NCBI GenBank assembly: GCA_030693515.1
Contig: JAUYAK010000113.1
Coordinates: forward strand, 1 to 64,000
DNA from: Opitutaceae bacterium
GTDB lineage: Bacteria > Verrucomicrobiota > Verrucomicrobiia > Opitutales > Opitutaceae
Direction of reading: 5' to 3'
Length of the DNA stretch: 64,000 nucleotides
Made by a program: the position numbers and the translations under genes. Under the pieces are notes generated by a model. The model was not told the origin of the DNA and did no database searches. It worked only from the letters and a program-made list of their open reading frames with translations. Positions 54,868 through 56,014 of the stretch are shown here, one piece after another. Numbering within the stretch: the stretch's first letter is position 1; every line of letters starts with the position of its first letter.

Positions 54868-55587
54868 TCAGGCAGTCGGGGGCGGCCCGGCGCGGAGCAG
54901 GGCGTCGAGTTCGTTGAGGCCCTCGTGGGAGCCGATCTCGTAGAAGCGCTGCGGCATTTCGTAGCCGGCGAGCTGGCCGCGCGCGCAGAGCTGCGTCTGC
55001 ACCGCCGCGAGATCGACGACGGCATCGCGGGGGAAGCCATTGAAGGCCGCGGCGCGAAACACGCCCAAGCCGTAGTCGATGTGGCGCATGGCCGGGGTGC
55101 GGTGCTTTTTGTCGTAGGCTTTGATCTCTCCGCCCGCGAATTCGACGTTGCTCGTGTCGTAGCGGCCGTGGTTCTCGAAGACGGTCATCAGGCCGAGCTT
55201 CCCGCTCCGCTGGAAAAAATCGCCGACCGCGCGGTAGTCGATCGGCAGGTAGCTGTCACCGTAGAGCACGTAGAACGCGTCGCCGAGCTTGGGCAGGGCA
55301 GCGATGAGCGCGCCGCCGGTGCCGAGGAGTTTGGGGCCGTCGAACGCGTAGTCGATCTGCACGCCCCACTTGGAGCCGTCGCCGTAGAGCTCGACGATCT
55401 TCTCGCCGAGATAGCCGACGCAAAGGACGATCTTGGTGAGGCCGTTTTTCTTCAGCAGGCGGAGCTGATGGGAGAAAAAGGGTTCGCCCGCGACCTCGAC
55501 GAGGAGCTTCGGGATTTTCTCCGTGATTGGCCGGAGACGCGTGGCCATGCCGCCTGCTAGCAATGCCACTGGAAAATCGGAAAACAT
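54868..55587 (-). CDS. hddC: Nucleotidyltransferase, heptose-1-phosphate guanylyltransferase-like
   Basis: MFSDFPVALLAGGMATRLRPITEKIPKLLVEVAGEPFFSHQLRLLKKNGLTKIVLCVGYLG; start codon lies in the repeat arm. Confidence 0.8.
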   Translation of the reverse strand: MFSDFPVALLAGGMATRLRPITEKIPKLLVEVAGEPFFSHQLRLLKKNGLTKIVLCVGYLGEKIVELYGDGSKWGVQIDYAFDGPKLLGTGGALIAALPKLGDAFYVLYGDSYLPIDYRAVGDFFQRSGKLGLMTVFENHGRYDTSNVEFAGGEIKAYDKKHRTPAMRHIDYGLGVFRAAAFNGFPRDAVVDLAAVQTQLCARGQLAGYEMPQRFYEIGSHEGLNELDALLRAGPPPTA

Positions 55588-55612
55588 GGAAAAGCGGGAA
55601 AGCGGGAAACAG
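55568..55612. repeat. Degenerate ~8-bp repeat arm (GGAAAATC/GGGAAAGC), left arm flanking the second four-helix-bundle gene
   Basis: ctggaaaatcggaaaacatggaaaagcgggaaagcgggaaacag. Confidence 0.8.
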
Positions 55613-55613
55613 T

Positions 55614-56000
55614 TCAACGGCCTTTGGCCTTGCGATTGATCGTGGTGAGAATCGCAAGGAGTTCGCGGGCTTCGGTCGCGTGCGAAACAACCTGGATTAC
55701 TTCGCCAATGTTGGACTGGCGGCAGATTTCCAGCCAGTAGTTGGTTTCAGTGGCTTCCTTTTGGGCGATGGCGGTCTTGTGGATGAAGTCATCCCGCGAT
55801 TCGGCGCGGTTCGCTTCACGGTAGTTTGCGCCGAGGGACGTTGCCGAACGCAAGAGCTGTCGGCCAATCACAGAAGTGACTTCGCCGCGTGGCAGTGAAG
55901 AGACGAATCGAACAACAGCGATCACGAAAGCGAGGGTGCGCCGTTCCAGTTCGTTTTTTCCGCCGGTGTTTTCCACTTTTCCGATTTTCCGCTTTCCCAA
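55614..56000 (-). CDS. Four helix bundle protein (S23/IVP-related, Avd-like), second copy
   Basis: ELERRTLAFVIAVVRFVSSLPRGEVTSVIGRQLLRSATSLGANYREANRAESRDDFIHKTAIAQKEATETNYWLEI; TTG start in right repeat arm, so the N-terminus MGKRKIGKVENTGGKN is repeat-encoded. Confidence 0.9.
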   Translation of the reverse strand: MGKRKIGKVENTGGKNELERRTLAFVIAVVRFVSSLPRGEVTSVIGRQLLRSATSLGANYREANRAESRDDFIHKTAIAQKEATETNYWLEICRQSNIGEVIQVVSHATEARELLAILTTINRKAKGR

Positions 56001-56014
56001 TTTTCAATCTTCAG
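55967..56014. repeat. Degenerate repeat arm, right arm inverted relative to 55568-55612
   Basis: ttttccacttttccgattttccgctttcccaattttcaatcttcag; reverse complement GGGAAAGCGGAAAATCGGAAAAGTGGAAAA matches left arm words. Confidence 0.8.

Follow-up and report, generated by a model that had tools for sequence, protein, structure and literature searches.

We analysed a stretch of 64,000 nucleotides from an Opitutaceae bacterium (hereafter the window). The locus under study carries on the minus strand, in this order, an HddA-like GHMP kinase gene, a 5' arm, a gene coding for a four-helix-bundle protein (4HB), a 3' arm and an HddC-like nucleotidyltransferase gene (Table 1). The location between hddC-like and hddA-like genes proposed in the first-pass annotation agreed with the NTP_transferase and GHMP kinase matches of the two neighbours, and direct reading of the sequence recovered the left and right arms that it had quoted, which correspond to the 3' and 5' arms, respectively. 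The two arms have in common words of about 8 nt (GGAAAATC, GGAAAAGC and GGGAAAGC), and complementary terminal repeats are present, with inverted repeats between the arms of 14 nt at 100% and 27 nt at 81% in an independent repeat search. The 4HB gene is the sole ORF inside the element.

Table 1. Coordinates, in the window, of the HddA-HddC locus and of the other arm-bounded elements.
Feature	Positions	Strand	Evidence
3' arm, beyond the 3' end of the 4HB ORF: 8-nt words of GGAAAATC/GGAAAAGC type in an inverted array	55571..55610	-	sequence, inverted-repeat search, shuffles
5' arm, 5' of the 4HB start and overlapping it: purine-rich GGAAAATC-type 8-nt words	55969..56009	-	sequence, inverted-repeat search, shuffles
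4HB gene (S23/IVP family), probable GTG start 55976	55614..55976	-	profiles, homologue alignment, AlphaFold2, fold matches
HddC-like NTP_transferase, host gene 3' of the element	54868..55587	-	ORF and domain match
HddA-like GHMP kinase, host gene 5' of the element	56011..56994	-	ORF and domain match
Second 4HB element (GTGATGG word), flanked by genes identified by eye as RmlB-like and RmlA-like	15946..16370	-	
ORF-less element, word GGGACCAA, 34-nt spacer; codes for the C-terminal tail of ORF 8776-9591	9552..9663	.	
ORF-less element, word GGGACCAA, in frame within methyltransferase-like ORF 36245-37246(-)	36866..36975	.	
ORF-less element, GTGAAAGGGAAA-type word, 12-nt spacer, adjoins the start of ORF 22610-23704(-)	23707..23808	.	

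The stop codon of the HddA-like gene abuts the 5' arm and, as previously noted, the start codon of the HddC-like gene lies inside the 3' arm (CAT at 55585-55587), the N-terminal codons of this gene being arm sequence. The longest 4HB ORF of the locus (55614-56000) starts from a TTG; the GTG at 55976 is probably the actual start because it aligns with the ATG of the homologue from genome G139 (V/M-ENTGGKN). The N-terminus of the protein had been described as repeat-encoded: the start indeed lies in the arm, and the N-terminus quoted, MGKRKIGKVENTGGKN, is probably about 8 residues too long. When the arms alone were submitted to dinucleotide shuffling (2000 trials), the observed local score of 21 was never reached (0/2000; shuffle mean 10.95, sd 2.0).

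The 4HB protein is a member of the S23/IVP family (PF05635, TIGR02436), based on curated cut-offs and on its four-helix fold. It matched PF05635 with 64.3 bits (cut-off 33.8) and TIGR02436 with 83.4 bits (cut-off 24), and four helices were obtained in its AlphaFold2 model (pLDDT 94). The best fold match was 2RLD; 2GSC (Xcc0516) was also retrieved and, weakly, Avd, with E values of 0.04-0.05 and TM scores of about 0.7-0.8 for Avd and the Avd-RT complex (4DWL, 8UB8). Searches of Rfam, PHROGs and PADLOC gave no match.

The first-pass annotation had recognized a second, independent locus with a like layout and another word, and we recovered it at 15.95-16.37 kb, where the arms scored 18 versus 7.7 for shuffled sequences (0/2000 reaching the score). 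Both elements lie 5' of a sugar nucleotidyltransferase gene, as had been stated, although this is not a general rule since other 4HB sites differ. Altogether, this genome encodes five 4HB genes, all of them with arms (5/5) and with five different words. Homologous flanks corresponding to the site of the second locus were found at L001, L017, L032, L045, L047, L050 and L057 with 4HB proteins down to 34% identity, hinting that this site could be a hot spot for different 4HB lineages. The window also contains two similar REP-like palindromes of a different family, AGTAGGGCGGGTC...GACCCGCCCTACT with GTAG (13915-13990 and 54148-54220), which may explain the Y1 transposases of this genome, and another palindrome, TCATTCTGAGCGAAGCGAAGAATC... 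(14961-15061), similar to one nested in L107 within an ORF-less CACGAAA-type element.

The 4HB family was present in 41 of 60 relatives, with up to 13 copies. At 95 loci of this genome and its relatives, the 5' flank scored a median of 23 against its own inverted 3' flank, versus a mean of 12.4 against the flanks of other loci and a median of 11 in direct orientation, confirming that arms are much more alike within than between loci. The z value against shuffled flanks exceeded 3 in 82/95 loci, and shifting both windows by 500-900 nt along the same loci gave medians of 11-13. Shuffles and shifted windows thus rule out chance low-complexity sequence as an explanation of the arms. Resemblance no higher than in shuffled sequence and absence from homologues had both been named beforehand as results that would count against the arms; neither was observed, at either locus of the window for the former, and arms were present in the homologues. 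The 95th percentile of between-locus scores was exceeded by 59/77 genome loci of other phyla and by 24/30 loci of viral contigs. We found the same layout of 4HB plus arms in named records of Bacteroidota, Nitrospirota, Acidobacteriota, Desulfobacterota, Chloroflexota, Planctomycetota, CPR and others, as well as in annotated cyanobacterial plasmids, a minority of 4HB loci having weak arms or none. The tandem units measured 7-9 nt, as in STRR-like arrays, with a period of 7 nt in 66, 8 nt in 16 and 9 nt in 3 of the 88 scored loci, and the 5' arm was purine-rich in 86/88 scored loci of the relatives. The 23S motif was absent from all fetched loci.

Other 4HB sites were gyrB-gyrA, gatC-gatB, livK-livH, a hisF junction and cas operons (except for cas, gene names were assigned by visual inspection of the translated flanks). 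Site fidelity within 4HB clusters was 11/12, 10/10, 6/6 and 4/4. Two 4HB genes are located between cas genes, in L339 (cas10-cmr3) and L345 (cas6-cas4, on a Pseudanabaena plasmid), and could be misannotated as CRISPR accessory genes. The latter is an exception in its layout, the long AAAAGCT/AAAAGCC arrays on either side of its 4HB gene being direct instead of inverted. In L099 and L140, 3' arms of more than 200 nt stand beside short 5' arms, the number of units having grown on one side, and the N-terminal codons of HddC are replaced by arm sequence.

The extent of the unit was delineated by two copies in genome G045 (L008 and L035, 95% protein identity), which matched from arm to arm only; the ends of homology lie inside the arms. 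Purifying selection acts on the 4HB gene, with a median dN/dS of 0.098. In L334, GGACCAA arms enclose a 4HB gene reduced to roughly its first 50 codons; this truncated gene indicates a route by which ORF-less copies can arise, and L334 is likely a deletion intermediate towards the ORF-less GGACCAA elements, two of which are present in the window. With regard to a possible mobilisation in trans through word matching, the genome with most GGACCAA matches (G019, 180) encodes the cognate 4HB; in other genomes with many such matches, no intact cognate 4HB was found among the loci read. The arms of GxxExxY (PDDEXK_3) genes, a family found in 42/60 relatives, were tested as a prediction, and 17/24 loci were above the 95th percentile of between-locus scores. 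Their arm words, CACGGAA, CACAGAG and CGCAAAG, are those of the remaining ORF-less elements. These GxxExxY loci (L256-L285) have inverted arms made of 8-10 nt CACNGAN-type words.

We surveyed the HddA-HddC junction using HddA from 150 genomes of the family. Three states were observed in related genera: an empty junction with HddC straight after HddA (about 20 cases), ORF-less arms of CACGGAA-, CACGAAA- or CGCAAAG-type words (7 cases), and 4HB with arms (9 cases). Empty junctions have only a few nucleotides between stop and start codons, and no target-site duplication could be read because the arms overwrite this short stretch. In the 150 genomes, all 4HB proteins more than about 52% identical to the HddA-HddC copy were located at this junction with two exceptions, one at a contig end and the other, L005, on a different contig of the genome studied here; L005 occupies another site with the word and protein type of L099. 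At the junction, word classes followed the 4HB tree, with GGAAAATC in G000 (the genome of the window), G139 and G064, GGAAGACG in G074, G169 and G116, GTGAAATC in G070 and G034, and GGAAGGC in G176. The HddA and HddC trees, in which G000 lies close to G074 and G139 groups with G176, disagree with the 4HB tree. In AU tests, the 4HB data rejected the HddA tree (p=2.6e-4), and the 4HB tree was rejected by both the HddA (p=1e-6) and the HddC data (p=8e-12). Since the word class tracks the 4HB tree and this tree conflicts with those of the neighbours, word and protein travel together. The HddA and HddC trees were also in conflict with each other (p=7e-4), so that ordinary recombination of this surface-sugar cluster may carry elements.

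At livK-livH, the conflict was again strong, the 4HB data rejecting each of the flank trees (p=3e-7 and p=3e-4). At gyrB-gyrA, AU p values of 0.04-0.11 for the 4HB data on the flank trees corresponded to a near-vertical pattern with weak conflict. This pattern and the strong site fidelity would be expected if there was no mobility at all, 4HB being an old resident gene whose arms are kept alike by slippage and arm-to-arm conversion, and if differences between sites were due to loss and exchange of the surrounding operon. We consider such a history improbable, given the like protein types and words at different sites, the pair of close copies located apart within a single genome, the conflict of 4HB with both flanks and its occurrence on plasmids and viral contigs.

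To measure the word-protein linkage, we compared the 5' arm of each locus with the 3' arm of its partner in pairs located at different sites. Word similarity rose with protein identity, from 0.21-0.22 (below 50%) to 0.37 (60-70%), 0.49 (70-80%) and 0.71 (above that). Different-site pairs with at least 60% protein identity had a mean word similarity of 0.438 versus 0.230 in permuted data (maximum 0.319). Between Verrucomicrobiota and other phyla (at least 58% identity), the corresponding values were 0.358 and 0.189 (permutation P=2e-4); cyanobacterial and verrucomicrobial 4HB proteins that are 64-71% identical have GGAGTCA/GAATTCA words in common. The fourfold sites of close pairs were near saturation (median identity 38%), and the word is therefore held by more than recent copying. 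Over all different-site pairs, the rank correlation between word and protein was weak (rho 0.08, exceeded by at least one permutation); since words change more quickly than proteins, the linkage can be seen only when identity exceeds about 60%.

These results bear on the local generation or homogenisation of arms suggested in the first-pass annotation. Both arms of one element change together, so that some homogenising process must act, in agreement with the second term of this proposal. The word is not invented anew at each site; it follows the 4HB protein across sites. Both views hold on different time scales, the arms being copied with the element and then drifting together.

The reading that we favour with reasonable, not full, confidence is that the locus is a small mobile element, inserted at the HddA-HddC junction and consisting of a 4HB gene enclosed by inverted arrays built from a short purine-rich word, because close relatives occur with and without 4HB and the layout is alike in many phyla. 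These comparisons suggest that it represents a mobile element that is widespread yet little studied, with a word particular to each protein lineage. Insertion would have occurred between the hddA stop codon and the hddC start. The 4HB protein would form an oligomer, its solved relative 2GSC being a pentamer according to passages of PMC4990558 and to a title cited in PMC10053308, and this oligomer would recognize the word of its own lineage in both arms, thereby marking the ends of the element. Host enzymes could then copy or recombine the element between these ends, while slippage would add and remove arm units and arm-to-arm template switching would keep the arms alike. ORF-less copies would be internal-deletion derivatives. 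Elements would persist at preferred operon junctions, which they would reach through vertical descent or through horizontal exchange at that same site.

The 4HB elements lie within operons, a few nucleotides from stop and start codons, and passages of PMC4990558 describe an intervening sequence (IVS) of Coxiella with a PF05635 protein, terminal inverted repeats forming a 28-bp stem and cutting by RNase III in vitro. Both observations would fit an RNA-level element as in 23S rRNA, whose arms pair in the operon transcript, with RNase III cutting the stem and 4HB binding it, the element being tolerated because it is cut out of the mRNA or splits it. We regard this possibility as rather unlikely. 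Mismatches in the arms show no preference for G.U over A.C (104 vs 145; 96 vs 127), leaving an RNA-stem constraint on the arms unsupported, and 4HB is antisense to both neighbours in 19/57 co-directional sites. The longest-ORF orientation test was unreliable in the GC-rich genomes. Moreover, processing alone leaves the word-protein linkage at different sites unexplained.

Two rival readings involve enzymes that would move the element. The likeness of the 4HB fold to Avd and its RT complex would agree with retrotransposition in trans, in which the element RNA is copied by a reverse transcriptase, DGR-like or other, with 4HB as an Avd-like partner. This appears very unlikely, being disfavoured by the lack of any RVT_1 match in 23 of the 41 relatives with 4HB, among them G029, a single-contig genome with 8 copies of 4HB, and G045, with 9 matches to 4HB and the close copy pair. 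A resident reverse transcriptase is not needed for the presence of the element. The only RVT_1 match of the genome studied here is on contig C37, the window being on C7. We also give little credit to a MITE- or REP-like element moved by a resident Y1 (RAYT-type) or other transposase. Y1_Tnp and 4HB are both present in 38 and both absent in 15 of the 60 relatives, with 7 discordant, but GxxExxY gives identical figures (38/15/7); the association of Y1 with 4HB is thus unspecific and mostly reflects lineage and genome type. In addition, three genomes with 4HB have no Y1 match, the arms have no conserved end sequence, and the GTAG-type palindromes of the window resemble a RAYT substrate more.

Avd of diversity-generating retroelements has a four-helix bundle fold like 4HB, but the HddA-HddC locus has no reverse transcriptase, template or variable repeat. 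MITEs and REPINs with RAYT resemble 4HB elements as short palindromic intergenic units with non-coding beside coding copies. They differ from them in that 4HB elements end in arrays, with a word depending on the lineage and no fixed end sequence, and encode an ORF that is not a transposase. We found neither a GTAG-headed conserved palindrome or end sequence common to the loci, as in REP/REPIN, nor a transposase inside the element, as in IS, and the words at the ends vary from one lineage to another.

Intervening sequences with an S23p ORF are present in the 23S rRNA of Coxiella, Leptospira and Brucella. The 23S rRNA IVS is the best-known relative of the 4HB element, with which it has in common the PF05635 protein and the terminal inverted repeats; in Coxiella, passages of PMC4990558 also mention two to three tandem GACAGAT heptamers, in varying number, just 5' of the S23p ORF. 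The IVS sits in 23S rRNA, whereas the HddA-HddC element and the other loci read sit between protein genes, and the passages from accounts of 23S IVS describe them without general tandem-word arms, word-protein linkage, ORF-less forms or a GxxExxY class. Seven-nucleotide words, as in most 4HB arms, are known from the heptameric repeats of Xanthomonas (GGGAATC) and Nostoc (GGGGA(C/T)T) and from cyanobacterial STRRs, and 4HB genes of cyanobacterial plasmids carry GGAGTCA arrays akin to heptameric tandem repeats. In Xanthomonas, 70-75 cases of two convergent GGGAATC arrays close together have been reported, in a paper that saw in general no link with mobile elements (PMC4692102). In contrast to these heptamers, the arrays of 4HB loci terminate a coding element or derivatives formed from it by deletion.

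Our search of openly accessible journal literature found no work joining the Coxiella IVS and the Xanthomonas arrays. Heptamer arrays, 23S intervening sequences and the genes annotated as "four helix bundle protein" and "GxxExxY protein" have hitherto been separate puzzles, and the loci studied here tie heptamer-type arrays to both 4HB and GxxExxY genes. Caution is warranted when such genes are found inside cas or similar operons, as they may be passengers. If each protein binds its own word, a protein-to-word code could be read across phyla, corresponding to a new mode of element-end recognition. As a tentative extension, which we hold to be possible but less than probable, S23/IVP proteins would form a large family of word-specific nucleic-acid binders, with a word of 7-9 nt per lineage, defining the ends of site-preferring mobile elements that need neither a transposase of their own nor a resident RT, and 23S intervening sequences, the heptamer arrays of cyanobacteria and Xanthomonas, and GxxExxY elements would share a single architecture.
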